Assembly: GCF_000931465.1 (NCBI RefSeq)
Contig: NZ_CP010892.1
Span: forward strand, 434,001 to 498,000
Length of the DNA: 64,000 nt
Direction: 5' to 3'
Origin: Pseudomonas sp. MRSN 12121
GTDB lineage: Bacteria; Pseudomonadota; Gammaproteobacteria; Pseudomonadales; Pseudomonadaceae
The position numbers and the translations under genes are program-made. Shown here one piece after another: positions 3,613 through 19,001 of this stretch; within the stretch, counting starts at the first letter, position 1; every line of letters starts with the position of its first letter. Under the pieces are notes generated by a model that worked only from the letters and a program-made list of their open reading frames with translations, searched no databases and had not been told where the DNA came from.

Positions 3613-4977
3613 TCAGCCGAGCAGCTCGCGCAGCACCTGGGTGAAGGCGCGGTTGCTGTCTTCTTCGCCGGCGTGACGGCCGTCGCGCACGACCCACTGA
3701 CCATTGACCAGCACATCGCGCACCTGGCGATCGCCGCCGGCGAACAGCCAGCGGTTGAGGATGCCGTCGCCATCGGCGGTGGCCAGGTAAGGATCGTTGC
3801 CGTCGAGCACCAGCCAGTCGGCGCGCTTGCCCACCTCCAGGGCGCCGATCGGCTGCCCCAGGGCCTGGGCGCCACCGTCCAGCGCGGCGTCGTACAGGGT
3901 CCGGCCGACCATCGGCTGGTCGCTGCGGTACAGGCGGTTGCGGCGCTGGTCGCGCAGGCGCTGGCCGTATTCCAGCCAGCGCAGTTCTTCCACCACGCTC
4001 AGCGACACATGGCTGTCGGAACCGATGCCCAGGCGGCCGCCCTGGGCGAGGAAATCCACGGCGGGGAAAATCCCGTCGCCGAGGTTGGCCTCGGTGGTCA
4101 GGCACAGGCCGGCGATCGCCTTGCTGCGCGCCATGAGGCTGACTTCCTCGGCGTTGGCGTGGGTCGCGTGGACCAGGCACCAGCGCTGGTCGACCTCGGT
4201 ATTTTCATACAGCCATTGCAGCGGCCGGCGCCCGCTCCAGGTCAGGCAGTCGTCGACTTCCTTCTGTTGTTCGGCAATGTGGATATGCACCGGGCACTGC
4301 TGGTCGCTGGCGGCCAACACGTCGCTGATCTGCTGCGGAGTGACCGCGCGCAACGAATGGAAGCACAGCCCCAGTTGCTGAGTCGGTTGTCCGGCCAGCA
4401 GCGGTTGCAGGCGGCTTTGCAGCTTGAGGTAGTTTTCCGTGCTGTTGATGAAGCGGCGCTGGCCGTCATTCGGCGCCTGGCCGCCGAAGCCCGAGTGGCT
4501 GTACAGCACGGGCAGCAGGGTCAGGCCGATACCGGCGGCGCTGGCGGCCTGGCTGATGCGCAGCGACAGTTCGGCCGGATCGGCGTAGGCCTGGCCGCTG
4601 GTGTCGTGGTGCACGTAATGGAATTCGGCGACCGAGGTGTAGCCGCACTTGAGCATCTCGATGTACAGCTGGCGGGCGATGACGCCCAGTTGCTCCGGGC
4701 TGATCTTGCCCACCAGGCGATACATCAGGTCGCGCCAGGTCCAGAAGCTGTCGTTGGGGTTGCCGGCCACTTCCGCCAGCCCGGCCATCGCCCGCTGGAA
4801 GGCGTGGGAGTGCAGGTTGGGCATGCCCGGCAGCAGCGGGCCCTTCAGCCGTTCCGCGCCTTCTGCGCTGGCATTGGCCTGGATGTGGGTCAGCAGGCCG
4901 TCGGCACCGACCTCAAGACGTACGTTGTTGGCCCATCCGTTAGGCAGCAGTGCGCGTTCGGCAAAGAAGGCGGACAT
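3613..4977 (-). CDS. hutF: Formimidoylglutamate deiminase
   Basis: 454 aa amidohydrolase-superfamily enzyme. It converts N-formimidoyl-L-glutamate to N-formyl-L-glutamate and ammonia, the step that defines the five-step histidine pathway of pseudomonads. Metal ligands are visible: His56 and His58 (LHSHAF), His233 (HIHIAEQ), His270 (LVHATH) and Asp321 (IGSDSH). The length matches the family. It is transcribed alone, divergently from hutCD. A HutC-like operator lies in the shared 107-bp upstream region, so repression by HutC with relief by urocanate is expected. Confidence 0.97.
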   Translation of the reverse strand: MSAFFAERALLPNGWANNVRLEVGADGLLTHIQANASAEGAERLKGPLLPGMPNLHSHAFQRAMAGLAEVAGNPNDSFWTWRDLMYRLVGKISPEQLGVIARQLYIEMLKCGYTSVAEFHYVHHDTSGQAYADPAELSLRISQAASAAGIGLTLLPVLYSHSGFGGQAPNDGQRRFINSTENYLKLQSRLQPLLAGQPTQQLGLCFHSLRAVTPQQISDVLAASDQQCPVHIHIAEQQKEVDDCLTWSGRRPLQWLYENTEVDQRWCLVHATHANAEEVSLMARSKAIAGLCLTTEANLGDGIFPAVDFLAQGGRLGIGSDSHVSLSVVEELRWLEYGQRLRDQRRNRLYRSDQPMVGRTLYDAALDGGAQALGQPIGALEVGKRADWLVLDGNDPYLATADGDGILNRWLFAGGDRQVRDVLVNGQWVVRDGRHAGEEDSNRAFTQVLRELLG

Positions 4978-5004
4978 GGTTCAAGCACCCCGTCGTGTGT
5001 TATT

Positions 5005-5020
5005 TGTATATACATATACA
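5005..5020. promoter_or_regulatory. Candidate HutC operator between hutF and hutC
   Basis: TGTATATACA (5005-5014) is a perfect palindrome and matches the core of the site before hutU. An overlapping TATACA follows to 5020. It lies between the divergent hutF and hutC starts, placed to repress hutF and to autoregulate hutC. GntR/HutC-family repressors bind such palindromes and are released by urocanate. Assignment is by similarity of the two sites and by position. Confidence 0.7.
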
Positions 5021-5084
5021 GACGTTTGCCTGCTCGGTAAACTCCGGCAAGCTACCCACTTTTATTCGCCAACAAGGATTTCCC

Positions 5085-5834
5085 GTGCCGACTCCGCCCG
5101 CCAACTCCCCGCTGGCCGCCCAATTGGGCGATAGTCCGGCGCCCTTGTATGCCCGCGTCAAGCAGATGATCACCCAGCAGATCGAGAGCGGAAACTGGCC
5201 GCCGCACTACCGCGTGCCCTCGGAAAGCGAGCTGGTCAGCCAGCTGGGTTTCAGCCGCATGACGATCAACCGCGCGCTGCGCGAGATGACCGCCGAAGGC
5301 ATGCTGGTGCGCATGCAAGGGGTCGGCACCTTCGTTGCCGAGCCCAAGAGCCAGTCGGCGCTGTTCGAGGTGCACAACATCGCCGACGAGATCGCCTCGC
5401 GCGGTCATCGCCATACCTGCAAGGTCATCACCCTGGGTGAAGAAGCGGCCGGCTCCGAGCGCGCCGTGGCCCTGGAAATGCGCGAAGGGCAGCGGGTGTT
5501 CCATTCGCTGATCGTGCATTTCGAGAACGATATCCCGGTGCAGATCGAGGACCGTTTCGTCAACGCGCTGGTAGCGCCGGACTACCTCAAGCAGGACTTC
5601 ACCCTGCAGACCCCCTACGCCTACCTGAACCAGGTCGCGCCGCTGACCGAGGGCGAGCACGTGGTCGAGGCGATCCTGGCCGAGCCCGAAGAATGCAAGT
5701 TGCTGCAGATCGAGCGCGGCGAGCCGTGCCTGCTGATTCGTCGCCGGACCTGGTCCGGCCGCCAGCCGGTAACGGCCGCGCGCCTGATCCACCCCGGTTC
5801 CCGTCATAGCCTGGAAGGGCGGTTTCACAAGTAA
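5085..5834 (+). CDS. hutC: Histidine utilisation repressor, GntR/HutC family
   Basis: 249 aa. An N-terminal GntR winged helix (about residues 20-90; YRVPSESELVSQLGFSRMTI) is followed by a C-terminal UTRA ligand domain (about 110-245). The GTG at 5085, with aaggat about 6 bases upstream, is chosen: it gives the family length and avoids a 45-residue extension that would run through the hutF promoter. HutC binds operators in the hut region and releases DNA on binding urocanate. hutD starts 9 bp after its stop, so the two are co-transcribed. Confidence 0.96.
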   Translation: MPTPPANSPLAAQLGDSPAPLYARVKQMITQQIESGNWPPHYRVPSESELVSQLGFSRMTINRALREMTAEGMLVRMQGVGTFVAEPKSQSALFEVHNIADEIASRGHRHTCKVITLGEEAAGSERAVALEMREGQRVFHSLIVHFENDIPVQIEDRFVNALVAPDYLKQDFTLQTPYAYLNQVAPLTEGEHVVEAILAEPEECKLLQIERGEPCLLIRRRTWSGRQPVTAARLIHPGSRHSLEGRFHK

Positions 5835-6716: not shown

Positions 6717-6730
6717 CTTGTATGTACAAG
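6717..6730. promoter_or_regulatory. HutC operator at hutU start site
   Basis: CTTGTATGTACAAG is a perfect 14-bp palindrome directly downstream of the -12 element. It covers the predicted transcription start, a position that would block promoter escape or open-complex formation. It shares TGTA-N2-TACA with the hutF-hutC site. Confidence 0.8.
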
Positions 6731-6850: not shown

Positions 6851-8533
6851 GTGACTGAGAACAAAGCTACGAAATACCGGAACGTCGAAATTCGCGCTGC
6901 CCGCGGCAACAAGCTGACCGCCAAGAGCTGGCTGACAGAAGCACCGCTGCGCATGCTGATGAACAACCTCGATCCGGAAGTCGCCGAGAATCCGAAGGAG
7001 CTGGTGGTTTACGGCGGCATCGGCCGTGCCGCGCGCAACTGGGAGTGCTACGACAAGATCGTCGAGAGCCTGACCAACCTGAATGACGACGAAACCCTGC
7101 TGGTACAATCCGGCAAGCCGGTCGGCGTGTTCAAGACCCACAGCAACGCACCGCGCGTGCTGATCGCCAACTCCAACCTGGTGCCGCACTGGGCCACCTG
7201 GGAACACTTCAACGAACTGGATGCCAAGGGCCTGGCCATGTACGGCCAGATGACCGCCGGCAGCTGGATCTACATCGGCAGCCAGGGCATCGTCCAGGGC
7301 ACCTACGAAACCTTCGTCGAGGCTGGCCGCCAGCATTACAACGGCAACCTCACCGGCCGTTGGGTACTCACTGCCGGCCTCGGCGGCATGGGTGGCGCCC
7401 AGCCGCTGGCCGCGACCCTGGCCGGCGCCTGCTCGCTGAACATCGAATGCCAGCAGACCAGCATCGACTTCCGCCTGCGCAGCCGCTATGTCGACGAGCA
7501 GGCCAAGGACCTGGACGACGCCCTGGCGCGCATCGCCAAGTACACCGCCGAAGGCCGTGCCATCTCCATCGCCCTGCTGGGCAACGCCGCCGAGATCCTG
7601 CCGGAGCTGGTCCGTCGTGGCGTGCGTCCGGACATGGTCACCGACCAGACCAGCGCCCACGACCCGCTCAACGGCTACCTGCCGGCCGGCTGGAGCTGGG
7701 AGCAGTACCGCGAGCGCGCCAAGACCGAGCCGGCCGCTGTGGTCAAGGCCGCCAAGCAATCGATGGCCGTGCACGTCAAGGCGATGCTCGACTTCCAGAA
7801 GCAGGGCGTGCCGACCTTCGACTACGGCAACAACATCCGCCAGATGGCCCAGGAAGAAGGCGTCGAGAACGCCTTCGACTTCCCGGGCTTCGTGCCGGCC
7901 TATATCCGTCCGCTGTTCTGCCGCGGCATCGGGCCGTTCCGCTGGGCCGCGCTGTCGGGCGATCCGCAGGACATCTACAAGACCGACGCCAAGGTCAAGG
8001 AACTGATCCCGGACGACGCGCACCTGCACAAATGGCTGGACATGGCGCGTGAACGCATCAGCTTCCAGGGCCTGCCGGCGCGGATCTGCTGGGTGGGCCT
8101 GGGCCTGCGCGCCAAGCTCGGCCTGGCGTTCAACGAAATGGTGCGTAGCGGCGAGCTGTCGGCGCCGGTCGTCATCGGTCGCGACCACCTGGACTCCGGT
8201 TCGGTCTCCAGCCCGAACCGCGAAACCGAATCGATGCAGGACGGTTCCGACGCCGTGTCCGACTGGCCGCTGCTCAACGCCCTGCTGAACACCGCCAGCG
8301 GCGCGACCTGGGTTTCCCTGCACCACGGCGGCGGCGTCGGCATGGGCTTCTCCCAGCACTCCGGGATGGTGATCGTCTGCGATGGCACCGACGAAGCGGC
8401 CGAACGTATCGCACGCGTGCTGACCAACGACCCGGGCACCGGTGTCATGCGCCACGCCGATGCCGGTTACCAGATCGCCATCGACTGCGCCAAGGAACAA
8501 GGCCTGAACCTGCCGATGATCACCGGCAAATAA
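6851..8533 (+). CDS. hutU: Urocanate hydratase
   Basis: 560 aa. Converts urocanate to 4-imidazolone-5-propionate using tightly bound NAD+. The sequence is near-identical in layout to the P. putida enzyme: [10 protein letters not shown] near the N-terminus, NAD-binding [15 protein letters not shown], and [12 protein letters not shown], in which Cys413 corresponds to the conserved active-site Cys410 of P. putida. A GTG start at 6851 has gaggag 6-7 bases upstream. First gene of a long operon running to hutG. Confidence 0.98.
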
Positions 8534-8651
8534 GTTCTCGGCGGTTCGCCGCCAGGACCAGGGAAGAAGCCGCCGCACACGGCCGTGCGGTGGCTTGGTC
8601 CATGTAGCAGAGCTTTGACATGACAAAAAATCTCCTGGGAGAACAATAACG

Positions 8652-10115
8652 ATGTCCACGGCCAGCGATAACACCAAACCCCTGATCGAGCGGCGCTCGA
8701 TCAACTACATTCCCGAGGCCGAGCGCCACGGCAAGCTCTATAGCCAGTTCACCCTGTGGCTGGGCGCGAACCTGCAGATCACCGCCATCGTCACTGGCGC
8801 CCTGGCCGTGGTGCTGGGTGGCGATGTGTTCTGGTCGCTGATCGGCCTGCTGATCGGCCAGTTGCTGGGCGGTGGGGTGATGGCATTGCACGCGGCGCAA
8901 GGGCCCAAGCTCGGCCTGCCGCAGATGATCTCCAGCCGGGTGCAGTTCGGCGTCTACGGCGCGGCCATCCCGATCGTGCTGGTCTGCCTGATGTACCTGG
9001 GCTTCACCGCCACCGGCACCGTGCTTTCCGGCCAGGCGCTGGGCCAGCTGTTCGGCGTCAGCGACAGCGTCGGCATCCTGATCTTCGCCAGCGTCATCGT
9101 GCTGGTGACCGTGCTCGGTTACCGCGTGATCCACTTCATCGGTCGCGCCGCCAGCGTCATTGGCGTGATCGCCTTCGTTTACCTGTTCAGCCGCCTGATG
9201 GGCCAGACCGACGTCGGCGCGCTGCTGGAAATCCGCCATTTCAGCTGGAGCAGCTTCCTGCTCGCGGTGTCGCTCGCAGCGTCCTGGCAGATCGCCTTCG
9301 GCCCTTACGTGGCCGACTACTCGCGTTACTTGCCGAGCAAGACGTCCTCGGTGAAAACCTTCCTCGCCGCGGGTGCCGGCTCGGTGATCGGCGCCCAGGT
9401 GGCAATGATCCTCGGGGTGTTCGCCGCGGCCATGGCCAACGGTCAGTTCGCCGGTCGCGAGGTGGCCTACATCGTCGGCCTTGGCGGCAGCGGCGCCACC
9501 GCCGCGCTGCTGTACTTCGCCATCGCCTTCGGCAAGATCACCATCTCGACGCTGAACTCCTACGGCAGCTTCATGTGCATCGCCACCATCATCAGCGGCT
9601 TCCGCGGCCATCTGGAGGTAACGCGCCTGCAACGCCTGGTGTTCGTGCTGGTCATCGTCGGGGCCGCGACCCTGATCGCCTTGCTCGGCCAGCACTCGTT
9701 CCTCGGGGCGTTCAAGTCTTTCATCCTGTTCCTGCTGGCCTTCTTCACCCCGTGGAGCGCGGTCAACCTGGTGGACTACTACTGCATCACCCGCGAGCAC
9801 TACGACGTGCCGGCGCTGGCCGACCCGAACGGCCGCTATGGCCGCTGGAACATCCTGGGGATCAGCGTCTATGTGATCGGCGTGCTGGTACAGCTGCCGT
9901 TCATTGCCACCAAGTTCTACACCGGCCCGCTGGTGGAGGCCCTGGGCGGCGTGGACATCTCCTGGATCGTTGGCCTGGTGGTTCCCGCGGCGCTGTATTA
10001 CGTCTGCGCGAAGAAATGGCACGGCTCCGTACCCGATCGCCTGATCCTGCCGGTAGAGCAGGACCCGATCACAGAACAAAAGCTGAGTGGGGCAGACCGC
10101 GCGACAGCGGTCTAG
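8652..10115 (+). CDS. NCS1-family permease, candidate urocanate transporter
   Basis: 487 aa with about 12 hydrophobic helices and the PINYIPEAERHG-like N-terminal motif and Trp-rich helices of the purine-cytosine permease (CodB/NCS1) family. It lies directly after hutU, 118 bp downstream, and ahead of the ABC transporter genes. A transporter of this type in a hut operon is most simply a urocanate (or other imidazole) importer. In P. fluorescens SBW25 one hut-locus transporter is known to be urocanate-specific, and I infer that this is the equivalent gene. Cytosine transport, as similarity-based naming would suggest, is unlikely from context. Confidence 0.88.
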   Translation: MSTASDNTKPLIERRSINYIPEAERHGKLYSQFTLWLGANLQITAIVTGALAVVLGGDVFWSLIGLLIGQLLGGGVMALHAAQGPKLGLPQMISSRVQFGVYGAAIPIVLVCLMYLGFTATGTVLSGQALGQLFGVSDSVGILIFASVIVLVTVLGYRVIHFIGRAASVIGVIAFVYLFSRLMGQTDVGALLEIRHFSWSSFLLAVSLAASWQIAFGPYVADYSRYLPSKTSSVKTFLAAGAGSVIGAQVAMILGVFAAAMANGQFAGREVAYIVGLGGSGATAALLYFAIAFGKITISTLNSYGSFMCIATIISGFRGHLEVTRLQRLVFVLVIVGAATLIALLGQHSFLGAFKSFILFLLAFFTPWSAVNLVDYYCITREHYDVPALADPNGRYGRWNILGISVYVIGVLVQLPFIATKFYTGPLVEALGGVDISWIVGLVVPAALYYVCAKKWHGSVPDRLILPVEQDPITEQKLSGADRATAV

Positions 10116-10190: not shown

Positions 10191-11159
10191 ATGAAAACGA
10201 ATAAGACCCTGCTGACCACTTTGCTTTCCATCGGCCTGTTGGCCAGCGCTGGCGCCACCCAGGCGGCCGGCTGGTGCGAATCCGGCAAGCCGGTGAAGTT
10301 CGCCGGCCTGAACTGGGAAAGCGGCATGTTGCTGACCGATGTGCTGCAGGTGGTCCTGGAAAAAGGCTACGGCTGCAAGACCGACAGCCTGCCGGGCAAC
10401 TCCATCACCATGGAAAACGCCCTGAGCAGCAACGACATCCAGGTCTTCGCCGAAGAGTGGGTAGGCCGCAGCGAGGTCTGGAACAAGGCCGAGAAGGCCG
10501 GCAAGGTGGTCGGCGTCGGTGCCCCGGTGGTGGGCGCCATCGAAGGCTGGTACGTACCGCGCTATGTGATCGAAGGCGACGCCAAGCGCAAGCTGGAAGC
10601 CAAGGCCCCGGACCTGAAGAACATTGCCGACCTGGGCAAGTACGCCGCCGTGTTCAAGGACCCGGAAGAGCCGAGCAAGGGCCGTTTCTATAACTGCCCG
10701 GCCGGCTGGACCTGCGAGCTGGACAACAGCGAGATGCTGAAAAGCTACGGCCTGGAAAACGCCTACACCAACTTCCGTCCGGGCACCGGCCCGGCGCTGG
10801 ATGCCGCGGTGCTGTCGAGCTACAAGCGTGGCGAGCCGATCCTGTTCTACTACTGGACCCCGACCCCGCTGATGGGCCAGGTCGACCTGGTGAAGCTGGA
10901 AGAAAAACCGGGCGTGGACAAGAGCGTGAGCATCAAGGTCGGCCTGTCCAAGACCTTCCACGAGGAAGCTCCCGAGCTGGTGGCCGTGCTGGAAAAGGTC
11001 AACCTGCCGATCGACCTGCTCAACCAGAACCTGGCGCGCATGACCAAAGAGCGCATCGAATCGCCGAAGCTGGCGAAAATTTTCCTCAAGGAACATCCTG
11101 AAGTCTGGCACGCATGGGTGAGCGAAGACGCAGCCAAGAAAATCGACGCGGCCTTGTAG
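10191..11159 (+). CDS. hutX: Histidine ABC transporter, periplasmic binding protein
   Basis: 322 aa. A signal peptide (MKTNKTLL... ATQA) is predicted to be cleaved near residue 23-24. The mature part belongs to the OpuAC/ProX glycine-betaine binding superfamily, with aromatic residues for a cationic or quaternary ligand (NWESG, WVGRSEVW, YYWTPTPL). Two Cys pairs (WCES, GYGCKT; NCPAGWTC) may form disulfides. The ATG at 10191 has ggagcg upstream; an upstream in-frame start at 10149 would add 14 residues before the signal peptide and is rejected. Forms HutXWV with the next two genes. Confidence 0.93.
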   Translation: MKTNKTLLTTLLSIGLLASAGATQAAGWCESGKPVKFAGLNWESGMLLTDVLQVVLEKGYGCKTDSLPGNSITMENALSSNDIQVFAEEWVGRSEVWNKAEKAGKVVGVGAPVVGAIEGWYVPRYVIEGDAKRKLEAKAPDLKNIADLGKYAAVFKDPEEPSKGRFYNCPAGWTCELDNSEMLKSYGLENAYTNFRPGTGPALDAAVLSSYKRGEPILFYYWTPTPLMGQVDLVKLEEKPGVDKSVSIKVGLSKTFHEEAPELVAVLEKVNLPIDLLNQNLARMTKERIESPKLAKIFLKEHPEVWHAWVSEDAAKKIDAAL

Positions 11160-11229: not shown

Positions 11230-12081
11230 ATGTTTCCTGAAAGCTTCACGTTTTCCATCGCCGACTGGGTCAACGGTTGGGTCGATGCGCTGGTAACCAA
11301 CTACGGCGATGTGTTCCGCCACATCTCCGACACCCTGCTGTGGGCCATCGTCAACCTCGAAGGCCTGCTGCGCCTGGCGCCCTGGTGGCTGATGCTGGCG
11401 ATCGTCGGCGGCATCGCCTGGCATTCGACCCGCAAGCTGGTGACCACCGCGGTGATCGTCGGCCTGCTGTTCCTGGTGGGGGCGGTCGGCCTGTGGGACA
11501 AGCTGATGCAGACCCTGGCGCTGATGCTGGTGGCGACCCTGATTTCGGTGCTGATCGGCATCCCCCTGGGCATTCTCTCGGCGCGCAGCAATCGCCTGCG
11601 GTCGGTGCTGATGCCGCTGCTGGATATCATGCAGACCATGCCGAGCTTCGTGTACCTGATCCCGGTGCTGATGCTGTTCGGCCTGGGCAAGGTGCCGGCG
11701 ATCTTCGCCACCGTGATCTATGCCGCACCGCCGCTGATCCGCCTGACCGACCTGGGGATCCGCCAGGTCGACGGCGAAGTTATGGAGGCGATCAACGCCT
11801 TCGGTGCCAACCGCTGGCAGCAACTGTTCGGTGTGCAACTGCCGCTGGCCCTGCCGAGCATCATGGCGGGGATCAACCAGACCACCATGATGGCCCTGTC
11901 GATGGTGGTGATCGCCTCGATGATCGGCGCCCGCGGCCTGGGTGAAGACGTGCTGGTGGGGATCCAGACCCTCAACGTCGGCCGTGGCCTGGAAGCCGGC
12001 CTGGCGATCGTGATCCTGGCCGTGGTCATCGACCGCATTACCCAAGCCTATGGTCGTCCACGCCATGAGGTGAGCAAATGA
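11230..12081 (+). CDS. hutW: Histidine ABC transporter, inner-membrane permease
   Basis: 283 aa ProW/OpuAB-type permease. About six transmembrane segments are visible. The EAA loop that contacts the ATPase begins at about residue 185 (EAINAFGANRWQQLFGVQLP). ProW relatives have a longer N-terminus. It overlaps hutV by 4 bp (ATGA), so translation is coupled. Confidence 0.94.
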   Translation: MFPESFTFSIADWVNGWVDALVTNYGDVFRHISDTLLWAIVNLEGLLRLAPWWLMLAIVGGIAWHSTRKLVTTAVIVGLLFLVGAVGLWDKLMQTLALMLVATLISVLIGIPLGILSARSNRLRSVLMPLLDIMQTMPSFVYLIPVLMLFGLGKVPAIFATVIYAAPPLIRLTDLGIRQVDGEVMEAINAFGANRWQQLFGVQLPLALPSIMAGINQTTMMALSMVVIASMIGARGLGEDVLVGIQTLNVGRGLEAGLAIVILAVVIDRITQAYGRPRHEVSK

Positions 12082-12908
12082 GCAACGCAAGCGTAAGCAA
12101 GATCGAAGTGAAGAACGTCTTCAAGATTTTCGGCAACCGTGCGGCCGACGCGCTGGACATGATTCGCCATAACAAGACCAAGGACCAGGTGCTGGCCGAG
12201 ACCGGCTGCGTGGTCGGGGTCAACGACCTGTCGCTGAGCATCGGCACCGGCGAGATCTTCGTGATCATGGGCCTGTCCGGCTCCGGCAAGTCGACGCTGG
12301 TGCGCCACTTCAACCGCCTGATCGACCCGACCAGCGGCGCGATCCTGGTGGATGGCGTGGACATCCTGCAATACGACATGGAAGCCCTGCGCGAATTTCG
12401 CCGGCACAAGATCAGCATGGTGTTCCAGAGCTTCGGCCTGCTGCCGCACAAGACCGTGCTGGAAAACACCGCCTACGGCCTCAAGGTCCGCGGCGAGAGC
12501 AAGCAGGTCTGTGCCGAGCGCGCGCAGCACTGGATCAACACCGTGGGCCTCAAGGGCTACGAAAACAAATACCCGCACCAGCTGTCCGGCGGCATGCGCC
12601 AGCGGGTCGGCCTGGCCCGCGCCCTGGCGGCGGACACCGACATCATCCTGATGGACGAGGCCTTCAGCGCCCTCGACCCGCTGATCCGTGCGGAAATGCA
12701 GGACCAGTTGCTGGAGCTGCAGAAGACCCTGCACAAGACCATCGTCTTCATCACCCACGACCTCGACGAGGCCGTGCGCATCGGCAACCGCATCGCGATC
12801 CTCAAGGACGGCCGGCTGATCCAGGTCGGCACGCCGAAGGAGATCCTGCATTCGCCGGCGGACGAGTACGTCGACCGCTTCGTGCAGCGGCGCGCGGCGG
12901 TGGTTTGA
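12078..12908 (+). CDS. hutV: Histidine ABC transporter, ATPase
   Basis: 276 aa ProV-type ATPase. Walker A GLSGSGKST at 65-73, Q-loop VFQSFGLLPH, signature LSGGMRQR, Walker B IILMDEAFSALD and switch His in FITHDLDEA are all present. Unlike E. coli ProV (400 aa), it has no C-terminal CBS domains, so osmotic gating is not expected. A single REP follows its stop. Confidence 0.95.
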   Translation: MSNASVSKIEVKNVFKIFGNRAADALDMIRHNKTKDQVLAETGCVVGVNDLSLSIGTGEIFVIMGLSGSGKSTLVRHFNRLIDPTSGAILVDGVDILQYDMEALREFRRHKISMVFQSFGLLPHKTVLENTAYGLKVRGESKQVCAERAQHWINTVGLKGYENKYPHQLSGGMRQRVGLARALAADTDIILMDEAFSALDPLIRAEMQDQLLELQKTLHKTIVFITHDLDEAVRIGNRIAILKDGRLIQVGTPKEILHSPADEYVDRFVQRRAAVV

Positions 12909-12932
12909 AGGGTGGGGCGGGCCTGGCTTCCT

Positions 12933-12955
12933 GTAGGAGCGAGGCTTGCCCGCGA
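12933..12955 (+). repeat. Single REP between hutV and the first hutH paralogue
   Basis: An exact copy of the REP core (gtaggagcgaggcttgcc plus cgcga), with no facing partner, 24 bp after the hutV stop and 50 bp before the next start. It lies inside the operon. Confidence 0.85.
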
Positions 12956-13005
12956 AGGCGGCGATAAGGCTGCATCAATGTTCAAGTCGTACCCTGAGGT
13001 CGAAT

Positions 13006-14529
13006 ATGTCGCAGGCTGAAAAAATCGTTATCGCCGACGCCCCCGTGCGTTGGCAGGATGTGGTCGCCGTGGCACGGCATGGCGCGCAGCTCGAACTGTC
13101 GGCCCGGACCTGGGCGCGGATCGAGAACGCCCAGGGCATTGTCCAGCGCATTGTCGCCAGCGGCGAACGCGCCTATGGCATCAACACCGGCCTGGGCGCG
13201 CTGTGCAACGTCTCGCTGCAGGACGAACAGCTCAGCCAGTTGTCGCGCAACACCCTGCTCAGCCATGCCTGTGGCGTGGGTGCGCCGTTGAGCGACGAGC
13301 AGACCCGGGCGATTCTCTGCGCGGCCATCGTCAATTACAGCCACGGCAAGTCCGGGATTCACCGGCAGGTGGTCGAGGCGCTGCTGGCCTTGCTCAATCT
13401 CGGCATCACCCCGCAGGTGCCGGCCCAGGGCTCGGTGGGCTACCTGACCCACATGGCGCATATCGGCATCGCCTTGCTCGGTGTCGGCCAGGTCAGCTAT
13501 CGCGGGCAGGTCGTGGCGGCCGAGCAGGCGCTGGCGGCGGAGGGCCTGCAACCGGTGCGGCTGGGCGCCAAGGACGGCCTGTGCCTGGTCAACGGCACGC
13601 CGTGCATGACCGGCCTGTCGTGCCTGGCCCTGGCCGATGCCACGCGCCTGGTGCAGTGGGCCGATGTGATCGGCGCCATGAGCTTCGAGGCGCAGCGCGG
13701 GCAGATCGCCGCATTCGATGCCGAGATCATCGCGCTCAAGCCGCACCCGGGCATGCAACAGGTCGGCATCAACCTGCGAGCCTTGCTCGACGGCAGCGAA
13801 GTGATTGCCGCCAGCAAGGGGATCCGCACCCAGGATGCCCTGAGCATTCGTTCCATACCGCAGGTTCACGGCGCCGCCCGCGACCAGTTGGCGCACGCCA
13901 CGCAGCAGATCGAGACCGAACTCAATTCCGTCACCGACAACCCGATGGTGCTGGGTACGCCTGACCACTACCGAGTGGTATCCCAGGCCAACCCCCACGG
14001 CCAGTCGGTAGCGCTGGCGGCAGACCTGCTGGCGATCGCCATGGCCGAGGTCGGCTCGATCGCCGAGCGGCGCCTGGACCGCCTGATCAACCCGCATGTC
14101 AGCGGCTTGCCGGCGTTCCTGGTCAGCAACCCCGGGGTCAACTCGGGAATGATGATCGTGCAGTACGTGGCGGCCTCGCTGTGCGCGGAAAACCGCCAGC
14201 TGGCGCAACCGGCGGTGCTCGACAACTACGTCACCTCGGGCCTGCAGGAAGACCACCTGAGCCTGGGCACCAACGCCGCGCTGAAGCTGCACCGCGCCCT
14301 GGACAACTGCACCCAGATCCTCGCCATCGAATACCTGTTGGCCGCCCAGGCCTTCGAATTCCTCAAGGAGCAGCGTTTCGGCGCCGGCACCGACGCCGCC
14401 TGGAAGCTGCTGCGCCAGCACGTCCCGGCCTATGACCAGGATCGCTGGCTGGCCCCGGACATCGCCCGTGCCGCGGCACTGCTCAAGGTCCCGGCCTTGC
14501 TGCAAGAGGTGTTACCCGGCGTGCACTGA
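13006..14529 (+). CDS. Ammonia-lyase paralogue lacking the MIO triad (hutH1-like)
   Basis: 507 aa, full-length member of the histidine/phenylalanine ammonia-lyase family, intact frame. The start at 13006 has gagg upstream. The family forms its electrophilic MIO cofactor from Ala-Ser-Gly in [14 protein letters not shown]; here the segment reads GSVGYLTHMAH (142-152), so the three cofactor residues are absent. Retained are YGINTG (Tyr57), SHACGVG (His87), Asn196, Gln276, Arg282 and Glu415. Positions equal to HutH Tyr280 and Phe329 are Leu279 and Pro329. Normal MIO chemistry should be impossible. It could be a partner or regulator of HutH, a binding protein, or an enzyme of other chemistry. In P. 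fluorescens SBW25, two hutH copies are known and, to my recollection, only the second is a proven histidase. Confidence 0.92.
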   Translation: MSQAEKIVIADAPVRWQDVVAVARHGAQLELSARTWARIENAQGIVQRIVASGERAYGINTGLGALCNVSLQDEQLSQLSRNTLLSHACGVGAPLSDEQTRAILCAAIVNYSHGKSGIHRQVVEALLALLNLGITPQVPAQGSVGYLTHMAHIGIALLGVGQVSYRGQVVAAEQALAAEGLQPVRLGAKDGLCLVNGTPCMTGLSCLALADATRLVQWADVIGAMSFEAQRGQIAAFDAEIIALKPHPGMQQVGINLRALLDGSEVIAASKGIRTQDALSIRSIPQVHGAARDQLAHATQQIETELNSVTDNPMVLGTPDHYRVVSQANPHGQSVALAADLLAIAMAEVGSIAERRLDRLINPHVSGLPAFLVSNPGVNSGMMIVQYVAASLCAENRQLAQPAVLDNYVTSGLQEDHLSLGTNAALKLHRALDNCTQILAIEYLLAAQAFEFLKEQRFGAGTDAAWKLLRQHVPAYDQDRWLAPDIARAAALLKVPALLQEVLPGVH

Positions 14530-14682
14530 GCCACGCCCTGCAAGAACGTCTTTCATCGACAACGTTTTCCACAAAACCAGCGTGCCAAGGCGCCACCCGC
14601 TCAAAAAGCGGGCAGCGACGGATAACGGACACTTCCGGAGCGACTGGTCGTTAATAAAAAAACTCTCAAAAGGAGCATGAAT

Positions 14683-16215
14683 GTGACTGCGCTAAACCTG
14701 ATCCCCGGCCAACTGACCCTGGCTCAACTGCGAGCCGTCTACCAGCAGCCGGTAACTCTCAGTCTCGACAACAGCGCCTCGGCGCAGATCGATGCCAGCG
14801 TCGCCTGCGTCGAACAGATCCTCGCCGAAAACCGCACCGCCTATGGCATCAACACCGGTTTCGGCTTGCTGGCCTCGACCCGTATCGCCAGCGAAGACCT
14901 GGAGAATCTCCAGCGCTCCCTGGTGCTGTCCCATGCCGCCGGTGTCGGTGCGCCGATCAGCGACGCCCTGGTGCGCCTGATCATGGTGCTCAAGGTCAAC
15001 AGCCTGAGCCGTGGTTTCTCCGGGATCCGCCGCCAGGTGATCGACGCCCTGATCGCCCTGATCAACGCCGAGGTCTATCCGCATATCCCGCTCAAGGGCT
15101 CGGTGGGCGCGTCCGGCGACCTCGCGCCGCTGGCCCACATGTCCCTGGTGCTGCTGGGCGAAGGCAAGGCCCGCTACAAGGGGCAATGGCTGGACGCCAC
15201 CGAAGCGCTGAGTGTGGCCGGCCTCAAGTCGCTGACCCTGGCGGCCAAGGAAGGCCTGGCGCTGCTCAACGGCACCCAGGTGTCCACGGCGTTTGCCCTG
15301 CGCGGCCTGTTCGAGGGCGAAGACCTGTTCGCCGGCGCGCTGGCCTGCGGCGGCCTGACCGTCGAGGCGGTGCTGGGTTCGCGTTCGCCGTTCGATGCGC
15401 GGATCCATGCCGCCCGTGGCCAGAAAGGCCAGATCGATACCGCCGCGGCCTACCGCGACCTGCTGGGCGACAGCAGTGAAGTCTCCAAGTCGCACCAGAA
15501 CTGCGACAAGGTGCAGGACCCGTACTCGCTGCGCTGCCAACCGCAAGTCATGGGCGCTTGCCTGACCCAGTTCCGCCAGGCGGCCGAGGTACTGGTGATC
15601 GAAGCCAACGCTGTGTCCGACAACCCGCTGGTGTTCGCCGCCGAGGGCGATGTGATCTCCGGGGGCAACTTCCACGCCGAGCCGGTGGCCATGGCCGCCG
15701 ACAACATCGCCCTGGGCATCGCCGAAATCGGTTCCCTGAGCGAGCGCCGCATCTCGTTGATGATGGACAAGCACATGTCGCAGCTGCCGCCGTTCCTGGT
15801 GGGCAATGGCGGGGTCAACTCCGGCTTCATGATCGCCCAGGTGACCGCCGCGGCCCTGGCCAGCGAAAACAAGGCGCTGGCCCATCCGCACTCGGTGGAC
15901 AGCCTGCCGACTTCGGCCAACCAGGAAGACCACGTCTCCATGGCGCCCGCCGCCGGCAAGCGGCTGTGGGAAATGGCCGAGAACACCCGCGGCATCCTCG
16001 CCGTGGAATGGCTGGCGGCCTGCCAGGGCCTGGACCTGCGTGAGGGCCTGAAGACCTCGGCCAAGCTGGAGAAGGCCCGCGGCACCCTGCGCGCGAAAGT
16101 GCCGTTCTACGAGAAGGATCGGTTCTTCGCCCCGGACATCGACGCCGCGAGCGAGCTGCTGGCGTCCCGTTGCCTGAACGAGCTGATGCCGGCCAAGTTG
16201 CTGCCGAGCCTGTAA
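14683..16215 (+). CDS. hutH: Histidine ammonia-lyase
   Basis: 510 aa. Deaminates L-histidine to urocanate. The MIO triad Ala143-Ser144-Gly145 in [14 protein letters not shown] is intact, with catalytic Tyr54 (YGINTG), His84 (SHAAGVG), [11 protein letters not shown] and ANQEDHVS. Start choice: aaggag ends at 14674, two bases before an ATG at 14677, which is too close. The GTG at 14683 has ideal spacing and gives 510 aa with the MTALNL... N-terminus, equal to the P. putida enzyme length. This is the second of two tandem lyase genes and the one expected to be active. Confidence 0.97.
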
Positions 16216-16370: not shown

Positions 16371-17780
16371 ATGCAACAGCAAGCTCAAGGATTGAAACGC
16401 GGGCTGTCCGCCCGACATATTCGCTTCATGGCACTGGGGTCGGCGATCGGCACCGGGCTGTTCTATGGTTCTGCCTCGGCCATCCAGATGGCCGGTCCCG
16501 CGGTGCTCCTGGCCTACCTGATCGGTGGCGCCGCGGTGTTCATGGTGATGCGCGCGCTGGGCGAGATGGCCGTGCACAACCCGGTGTCCGGTTCCTTCGG
16601 CCAATACGCCAGCACCTACCTGGGCCCCATGGCGGGTTTCCTGCTGGGCTGGACCTACGCCTTCGAGATGGTCATCGTCGGCCTGGCCGATGTCACGGCC
16701 TTCGGCATCTATATGGGCTTCTGGTACCCGGACGTGCCGCGCTGGATCTGGGTGCTGGGCATCGTTTCGCTGATCGGCGGGCTGAACCTGTGCAACGTCA
16801 AGGTGTTCGGCGAGATGGAGTTCTGGCTGTCGCTGCTCAAGGTCGGTGCCATCGTCGCCATGATTCTCGGCGGTTTCGGCATCATGCTGTTCGGCATCGG
16901 CAGTTCGTCGGCTTCGACAGTGACCGGCCTCAGCAACCTCTGGGAACACGGCGGTTTCATGCCCAACGGTGTCGGTGGCCTGATCGCTTCCTTTGCCGTG
17001 GTGATGTTTGCCTTCGGCGGCATCGAGATCATCGGTGTCACGGCGGGCGAGGCCAAGGACCCGGACCGCGTGCTGCCCAAGGCGATCAACGCGGTGCCGC
17101 TGCGGATCCTGCTGTTCTACGTCCTGACCCTGTTCGTCCTGATGGCCATCTTCCCCTGGCAGCAGATCGGCAGCCAGGGCAGCCCGTTCGTGCAGATTTT
17201 CGCCAACCTGGGCATCGGCTCGGCGGCGACCATCCTCAATATCGTGGTGATCTCGGCGGCGGTGTCGGCGATCAACAGCGATATCTTCGGCGCCGGCCGC
17301 ATGATGTACGGCCTGGCCCAGCAAGGCCATGCACCCAAGGGCTTCGCCCAGCTGTCGCGCTACGGGGTGCCGTGGATGACTGTGGTGGTCATGAGCATTG
17401 CCCTGTTGCTGGGGGTGTTGCTGAACTACCTGATTCCGGAGAACGTGTTCCTGCTGATCGCGTCGATCGCGACCTTCGCCACGGTCTGGGTCTGGCTGAT
17501 GATCCTCTTCACTCAGGTGGCCATGCGCCGGTCCATGACCGCCGAGCAGGTGGCGCAGCTGAAATTCCCGGTACCGTTCTGGCCTTACGCGCCCATGGCG
17601 GCGATTGCCTTCATGCTGTTCATCTTCGGCGTGCTGGGCTACTTCCCGGACACCCAAGCGGCGCTGATCGTCGGGGTGGTGTGGATCGCCCTGCTGGTGC
17701 TGGCCTACCTGATCTGGGTCAAGCCCGCCGCCGGGCAGGCCGCGCTGGTCAAGCGCGACCCTTCTTTTTCTCATCGATAA
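16371..17780 (+). CDS. hutT: Histidine permease, APC superfamily
   Basis: 469 aa with about 12 transmembrane helices and typical AAT-family sequence: [20 protein letters not shown] with the GSAIGTGL substrate-backbone motif in TM1, ALGEMA in TM2, [16 protein letters not shown] in TM6. HutT of P. fluorescens SBW25 is a high-affinity histidine proton symporter. It is preceded by ggaacgag and followed 15 bp later by hutI. Confidence 0.94.
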
Positions 17781-17795
17781 CCACGGAGGCCCTGG

Positions 17796-19001
17796 ATGAA
17801 AACTCTCTGGCAACACTGTCATGTCGCAAGCATGGCGCAAGGTACTTACTCGATCATCGAGGATGCTGCCATCGTGACGTCAGGAGCGCTCATAGAGTGG
17901 ATCGGCCCACGCAGCGAAGTGCCGGCCGGCAACTATGCCGAGCGGCATGACCTGGCGGGGGCCTGGGTCACCCCGGGCCTCATCGACTGTCACACCCACA
18001 CGGTGTTCGGCGGCAATCGCAGCGGCGAGTTCGAGCAGCGCCTGCAAGGGGTGAGCTACGCCGAGATCGCCGCCGCCGGTGGCGGTATCGCCAGCACCGT
18101 GCGGGCGACCCGCGCAGCGAGCGAGGACGAACTGTTCGACAGCGCGCGCAAGCGCCTGAAGAGCCTGCTGCGCGACGGCGTCACCAGCGTCGAGATCAAG
18201 TCCGGCTATGGCCTGGACCTGGCCAGCGAACGCAAGATCCTGCGGGTGGTCCGGCGCCTGGGCGCCGAGTTGCCGGTCAGCGTGCGCAGCACCTGCCTGG
18301 CGGCTCATGCCTTGCCGCCGGAATACGCCGAGCGCGCGGACGACTACATCGAACATATCTGCGCCGAGATGCTGCCGGCGCTGGCGGCCGAGGGGCTGGT
18401 GGACGCGGTGGATGCCTTCTGCGAATACCTGGCGTTCTCGCCGGAGCAGGTGGAGCGGGTGTTCATTGCCGCGCAGCGGCTCGGCCTGCCGGTGAAACTG
18501 CACGCCGAGCAGCTGTCGTCGTTGCATGGCTCCAGCCTGGCGGCGCGTTACCACGCGCTGTCGGCCGACCACCTGGAATTCATGACCGAGGACGACGCCA
18601 TCGCCATGGCCCGGGCCGGCACCGTGGCCGTGCTGCTGCCGGGCGCGTTCTATTTCCTGCGCGAAACCCAGTTGCCGCCGATGGAGGCCCTGCGCAAGCA
18701 CGGGGTGAAGATCGCCGTGGCCAGCGACCTCAACCCCGGCACCTCGCCGGCGCTGTCGCTGCGCCTGATGCTGAACATGGCCTGCACCTGTTTCCGCATG
18801 ACCCCGGAAGAAGCCCTGGCCGGCGTGACCCTGCATGCGGCGACCGCGCTGGGCATGGACAAGACCCACGGTTCGCTGGAGGCCGGCAAGGTGGCGGACT
18901 TCGTCGCCTGGCAGATCGATCGTCCCGCCGACCTGGCCTACTGGCTGGGCGGCGACCTGGAAAAACGCGTCGTGCGCCACGGCGTTGAAGTGGATTTATA
19001 G
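17796..19001 (+). CDS. hutI: Imidazolonepropionase
   Basis: 401 aa amidohydrolase. Hydrolyses 4-imidazolone-5-propionate to N-formimidoyl-L-glutamate. Metal ligands: His66 and His68 ([10 protein letters not shown]), His236 (LHAEQL) and Asp311 (ASDLNPG). A cacggagg ribosome site precedes the ATG. hutG starts 10 bp after its stop. Confidence 0.97.

Follow-up and report, generated by a model that had tools for sequence, protein, structure and literature searches.

HutH1, a MIO-free homologue of histidine ammonia-lyase in Pseudomonas hut operons, is probably a hercynine trimethylamine-lyase

The hut operon of Pseudomonas sp. MRSN 12121 carries, beside the histidase gene hutH2, a second gene of the histidine ammonia-lyase (HAL) family, hutH1, whose product is probably a MIO-free lyase that converts L-hercynine (N-alpha-trimethylhistidine, histidine betaine) into trans-urocanate and trimethylamine and so feeds the hut pathway. 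We also lean towards the broader view that HutH1 founds a new class, hercynine trimethylamine-lyase, i.e., a MIO-free HAL lineage apart from ergothionase that would serve proteobacterial use of histidine betaine via hut, is carried on chromosomes and plasmids (including those of Klebsiella), is associated with three or more unrelated kinds of betaine transporter and would be an unrecognised source of trimethylamine. MIO-free elimination of trimethylamine is already known from ergothionase, and the hut-linked lineage is separate in the tree. The open literature searched yielded no description of a hut-operon hercynine lyase or of a hut-linked MIO-free lineage. The window, a stretch of 64,000 nucleotides (contig NZ_CP010892.1, positions 434,001 to 498,000), contains the features collected in Table 1.

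Table 1. Features of the hut region, in positions of the window
Feature	Position	Strand	Basis
hutC: GntR-type repressor	4950..5834	+	ORF; position, similarity to annotated plasmid hutC relatives
HutC-operator-like site TTGTATATACAT	5004..5015	.	motif match
HutC-operator-like site TTGTATGTACAA, upstream of hutU	6718..6729	.	motif match
hutU: urocanate hydratase, proposed next enzyme	6851..8533	+	TIGR01228 1027.7 bits
NCS1-type permease (HutTu)	8652..10115	+	Pfam Transp_cyt_pur
hutX: OpuAC/ProX-type quaternary-amine binding protein, three-Trp cage conserved	10191..11159	+	Pfam OpuAC 208.8 bits; Trp positions
hutW: ChoW/ProW-type permease	11230..12081	+	NCBIfam TIGR03416 293.7 bits, below cut-off
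hutV: ProV-type ATPase	12078..12908	+	NCBIfam TIGR01186 368.7 bits, above cut-off
hutH1: MIO-free HAL-family lyase, 507 aa, proposed hercynine trimethylamine-lyase	13006..14529	+	open frame; identity to HutH2; fold match to HAL and ergothionase
Triad-less MIO site GSVGYLTHMAH; Tyr146 (13441-13443) replaces ASGD	13429..13461	+	codons; Y146 invariant in alignment
Leu279 at HAL Tyr280 position; ergothionases also Leu	13840..13842	+	alignment, codons
hutH2: canonical MIO histidase	14677..16215	+	TIGR01225 727.4 bits
hutT: APC-family amino acid permease	16371..17780	+	profile match
hutI: imidazolonepropionase	17796..19001	+	TIGR01224 491.4 bits

Translation of hutH1 runs through all 507 codons with zero stops, confirming the original prediction of a clean, full-length lyase frame in the hut operon, and the product shares 40% identity with the adjacent HutH2 across 489 residues. 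The codons of its MIO site (GGC TCG GTG GGC TAC CTG ACC CAC ATG GCG CAT) leave the site exactly nine bases, or three residues, shorter than that of hutH2, with the Ala-Ser-Gly triad absent; formation of MIO is therefore impossible. Of the in-frame Ala-Ser-Gly deletion first proposed, the absence of the triad stands, while the choice of ASG or SGD as the deleted unit depends on the alignment. Alignment and codons also bear out the residues that had been listed as kept: Y57, H87, N196, Q276, R282 and E415 correspond to HAL Tyr53, His83, Asn195, Gln277, Arg283 and Glu414, and the two listed replacements are HAL Tyr280 to Leu279 and HAL Phe329 to Pro330. HutH1 scores 543.1 bits against the NCBIfam hutH model, barely above its cut-off of 539.15, and these four bits explain why automatic annotation names it a histidine ammonia-lyase. 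Between hutV and hutH1, the sequence TGTAGGAGCGAGGCTTGCCCGCGAAGGCGGC (12932-12970) is similar to a Pseudomonas REP element.

Across a sample of 99 genomes of the genus, 71 encode a HutH1 orthologue scoring at least 849 bits, none of them listed with an internal stop; these orthologues are 80-92% identical (own copy apart), and three further genomes hold copies at 59-71% identity. Since the orthologue is this common and GSVGY[LI] is read in all 45 HutH1-type copies from the loci read out, loss of the triad reflects neither chance nor sequencing error. The gene is open in 80/80 named Pseudomonas loci, and pairwise Nei-Gojobori comparison of these loci (3,240 pairs) gives a median dN of 0.064, a median dS of 0.715 and a dN/dS of about 0.09, the ratio for HutH2 being 0.056. 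In a 15-member HutH1 alignment reaching 47% identity, the six retained catalytic positions are invariant, as are Y146, at the former place of the triad, and L279. Together, selection, open frames and invariant residues argue that HutH1, which is spread from Gamma- to Alphaproteobacteria, is a maintained enzyme rather than a relic. The checks proposed at the outset thus came out in favour of a protein kept for another job: the triad loss is common to relatives, dN/dS is low and, in the 80 named loci, the wide frameshifts expected of a decaying gene were not found. None of the 21 genomes tested clearly has HutH1 without a MIO histidase, as all keep a histidase match; the match is split between two frames in G034 and lies in two pieces in G080, so neither is a clean loss. 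In G034 (L087, 12653-14211), the split hutH2 lies beside an intact hutH1, owing to a sequencing error or a fresh frameshift.

The 12-bp motif TTGTATATACAA, which we take to be the HutC operator of the family, has its two best matches in the window at hutF/hutC and 5' of hutU, and a match with at most two mismatches arises by chance in 2 of 500 random 200-bp stretches. The hutU product is not a thiourocanate hydratase, scoring 690.7 bits against the thiourocanate model, below the cut-off of 930. In the literature, HutC responds to urocanate, HutTu is a urocanate transporter, HutXWV participates in histidine uptake, and hutH1 is listed as a histidase but is dispensable for growth on histidine (PMC8871633).

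HutXWV lies directly upstream of hutH1 in 80/80 named Pseudomonas loci, with HutV the recognised gene preceding and HutH2 the next. HutX, of the OpuAC family, has Trp at each of the three positions (W65, W140 and W188) that form the cage of E. coli ProX; it thus resembles the ProU/ProX-type quaternary-amine ABC transporters, although HutXWV differs from these in belonging to a hut module that accompanies HutH1 and in its reported uptake of histidine. A HutX orthologue occurs in 55/60 HutH1-positive and 1/20 HutH1-negative Pseudomonas genomes (Fisher p 7e-13, uncorrected for shared ancestry). Among the five HutH1-positive exceptions, a BCCT betaine-type carrier lies between hutU and hutH1 in G041 and G063, an SBP_bac_3 ABC system is found instead in G080, and hutW and hutV adjoin hutH1 with no hutX recognised there in G023 and G051. 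The sole HutX-positive genome among the 20 HutH1-negative ones (L088, 6581-10224) carries hutC followed by hutXWV without hutH1. The loci with a BCCT carrier next to HutH1 are L036, L037 and L078, the last from a genome of the same order, and HutXWV itself precedes HutH1 in another proteobacterial family (L082) and on a Sinorhizobium plasmid (L193). On plasmids of Aureimonas and Klebsiella, OsmF/OpuAC-type ABC systems lie next to the MIO-free lyase, whereas HutH1 units on Erwinia, Rhizobium and Burkholderia plasmids, together with L076 and L079, have an SBP_bac_3 ABC system, not of betaine type, and no uptake system is found next to HutH1 in L077. As a control, 18 hut loci with HutH2 and without HutH1 contain zero HutXWV, BCCT or OsmF-type genes, and hutH2 there generally follows hutU directly, indicating that the betaine transporter goes with HutH1 and not with the histidase.

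Plasmid-borne copies point to the product. An Aureimonas cassette (L204) is ordered hutC-hutF-lyase-hutI-hutG-hutU-hutD, and a Klebsiella cassette (L202) hutI-hutU-ABC-lyase-hutD-hutC-hutF; in both, within the stretch read (one Klebsiella record in detail), the sole lyase is MIO-free (GSVGYL, QD[PA]LS), and the HutU scores well above the TIGR01228 cut-off and below that for thiourocanate hydratase. The Klebsiella lyase has a long branch and is not placed within the HutH1 clade proper. Its plasmid, from Klebsiella pneumoniae (NZ_CP138682.1), carries the hut cassette in complete form together with an OsmF-type transporter, the lyase (7947-9479) reading GSVGYLIATAH with Tyr280 replaced by Leu, and HutH1 matches at E<1e-100 occur in 125 Klebsiella plasmid records. 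HutH1 is distant from HutH2 in some other genomes, and stand-alone transporter-lyase units include hutC in L192 and L193 and a HutC-like operator in L192 and L190; the Burkholderia pyrrocinia ABC-lyase unit includes its own hutC, and the Burkholderia and Erwinia units have an upstream 12-bp site with one mismatch to the operator motif. No thiourocanate hydratase above the cut-off is encoded in the MRSN 12121 genome. Taken together, the sole-lyase cassettes, their genuine HutU, the hutC- or operator-bearing units and the lack of a thiourocanate hydratase make urocanate, as judged from gene content, most likely the product of HutH1.

Ergothionase is a MIO-free HAL homologue that cleaves ergothioneine to thiourocanate and trimethylamine (PMC13405746, PMC7653990), and the original premise that every characterised HAL, PAL and TAL needs MIO overlooked it. 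The MIO site of the Treponema denticola enzyme (PDB 6s7j) reads SSIGEGDI, and that of four further ergothionases, taken from four genomes within a single proteobacterial family, where they adjoin thiourocanate hydratases, GS[IM]GCADIG; 6s7j is the best solved-structure match for one of the four, and the HutH1 copies of the same genomes are nearly identical to that of Rhizobium etli. All these ergothionases share with HutH1 the HAL fold without MIO and Leu at HAL Tyr280, and ergothionase keeps the positions of Tyr53, His83, Arg283 and Glu414; trimethylamine, known as its leaving group, would be the leaving group of HutH1 as well. However, the MIO site is shortened by one residue relative to HAL in ergothionases and by three in HutH1, identity in the fold match is 28%, and ergothionase is linked to thiourocanate hydratase whereas HutH1 is linked to hutU and betaine transporters. 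A tree of 46 rows places HutH1 in a clade of its own (100/99), apart from histidases (99/99) and from a deep ergothionase clade (99/93); because of this separation, HutH1 looks to have lost MIO independently of ergothionase, within the limits that long branches and an arbitrary root set on the tree. An AlphaFold model of the HutH1 monomer (mean pLDDT 77.9, active-site loops <50), informative on the fold and not on the pocket, matches HAL first (TM 0.85-0.86) and ergothionase at 0.84. With the histidase HutH of P. putida (PDB 1b8f), HutH1 shares the fold, 40% identity, the majority of the active-site residues, the operon and the proposed product, yet HutH1 differs from it in lacking the triad, in its Leu and Pro replacements, in its betaine-transporter linkage and, according to the literature, in not being needed for growth on histidine.

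A urocanate-yielding, MIO-independent lyase fed by a quaternary-amine transporter fits L-hercynine as its substrate, a compound produced by, among others, fungi and mycobacteria (PMC9103826). We infer the substrate and products, as well as what Tyr146 and Leu279 do, and assign the trimethylamine leaving group by analogy, since HutH1 does not group with ergothionases. In the proposed route, hercynine would be imported via HutXWV and HutH1 would expel trimethylamine from it, leaving trans-urocanate for conversion to glutamate by HutU, HutI and the remaining hut pathway; the urocanate so formed would also relieve repression of the operon by HutC. Because trimethylamine is already a good, quaternary leaving group, MIO, the electrophile that aids departure of the amino group in HAL, would be dispensable. 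Tyr57 would act as the base and His87, Asn196, Gln276, Arg282 and Glu415, all kept, would bind the imidazole and carboxylate, with the MIO loop and the positions of HAL Tyr280 and Phe329 rebuilt.

Against hercynine speak the SBP_bac_3 systems at several HutH1 units, the lack of an uptake system at L077 and the report of histidine uptake by HutXWV. The SBP_bac_3 transporters beside many copies would suit a MIO-free lyase that supplies HutU with urocanate from a different histidine derivative, for example one N-methylated in another way or otherwise activated, as would the HAL Phe329 position, which is Pro or Ala according to HutH1 subclade, so that specificity may vary; we regard this as rather unlikely, given that three unrelated quaternary-amine transporter types adjoin HutH1 and that a quaternary leaving group best explains the dispensability of MIO. 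The active site of the HAL family is assembled from several subunits, and hutH2 is adjacent in 80/80 named loci, as would befit a non-catalytic subunit or chaperone that tunes histidase in mixed HutH1/HutH2 tetramers. Such a role is nonetheless very unlikely for a protein that is far from HutH2 in other genomes, forms stand-alone units, travels with betaine transporters and keeps its own catalytic residues invariant, its MIO-free kin being the sole lyase of plasmid cassettes. A histidine or urocanate sensor regulating hut genes would account for the operon location and the kept substrate-binding residues, but is scarcely credible when HutC already responds to urocanate (PMC8871633) and HutH1 has no DNA-binding or signalling domain and an invariant catalytic base and Glu415. 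Given that MIO-free lyases are found in stand-alone units and as the sole lyase of complete plasmid hut cassettes, two of the three options in the original prediction, mixed tetramers and a sensor, suit the evidence poorly, and the third, a MIO-free enzyme, fits best. The original prediction neither noted the decisive association with quaternary-amine transporters nor proposed a substrate.

Activity as an ergothionase, yielding thiourocanate from ergothioneine, would agree with the shared lack of MIO and the shared Leu at position 280; it is highly improbable, as ergothionases form a separate clade, the MRSN 12121 genome lacks an above-cut-off thiourocanate hydratase, and in G141, G204 and G349 a genuine ergothionase cluster exists separately from the HutH1 copy. 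The label ergothionase was accordingly rejected for HutH1 on clade and genomic context. The idea that HutH1 is a duplicate in decay, or a histidase that turns over histidine itself weakly and without MIO, is hardly worth entertaining: automatic models do call HutH1 a histidine ammonia-lyase and the gene is dispensable on histidine, but the low dN/dS, the uniformly open loci and the wide phylogenetic spread contradict decay, and histidase chemistry requires MIO.

If hercynine is indeed the substrate, hutH1, known as a histidase unneeded on histidine, would gain a function, and the widespread label of histidine ammonia-lyase, which current models pass, would be corrected. It would also provide a catabolic route for hercynine, the ergothioneine precursor of fungi and mycobacteria, show that MIO loss accompanies a change of leaving group, and possibly add a further bacterial source of trimethylamine.

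Several other lyases lack the canonical MIO site. Another MIO-free clade (L031, 4832-6370; L032, 5983-7521; L033, 5932-7521; L034, 5944-7482; L200, 5458-7032) reads GSVGYLAVEGH or GSVGYLGPEGH, keeps Tyr280 and, in four aligned members, Phe329, and lies mostly beside an amino-acid ABC transporter. The lyases of L194 (5304-6956), L195 (5229-6890) and L196 (5894-7879), with GSIGAADL or GSIGAGDL, an ergothionase-like one-residue shortening and Leu at Tyr280 (QDPLS), are possibly further MIO-free enzymes. In L035 (4951-10988), a HutH1-like lyase (50%) seems to share an operon with a GbcA-like Rieske oxygenase, a reductase bearing a DmmA-like domain and an Ldh_2 dehydrogenase, which may belong to a broader pathway for betaines or methylamines.
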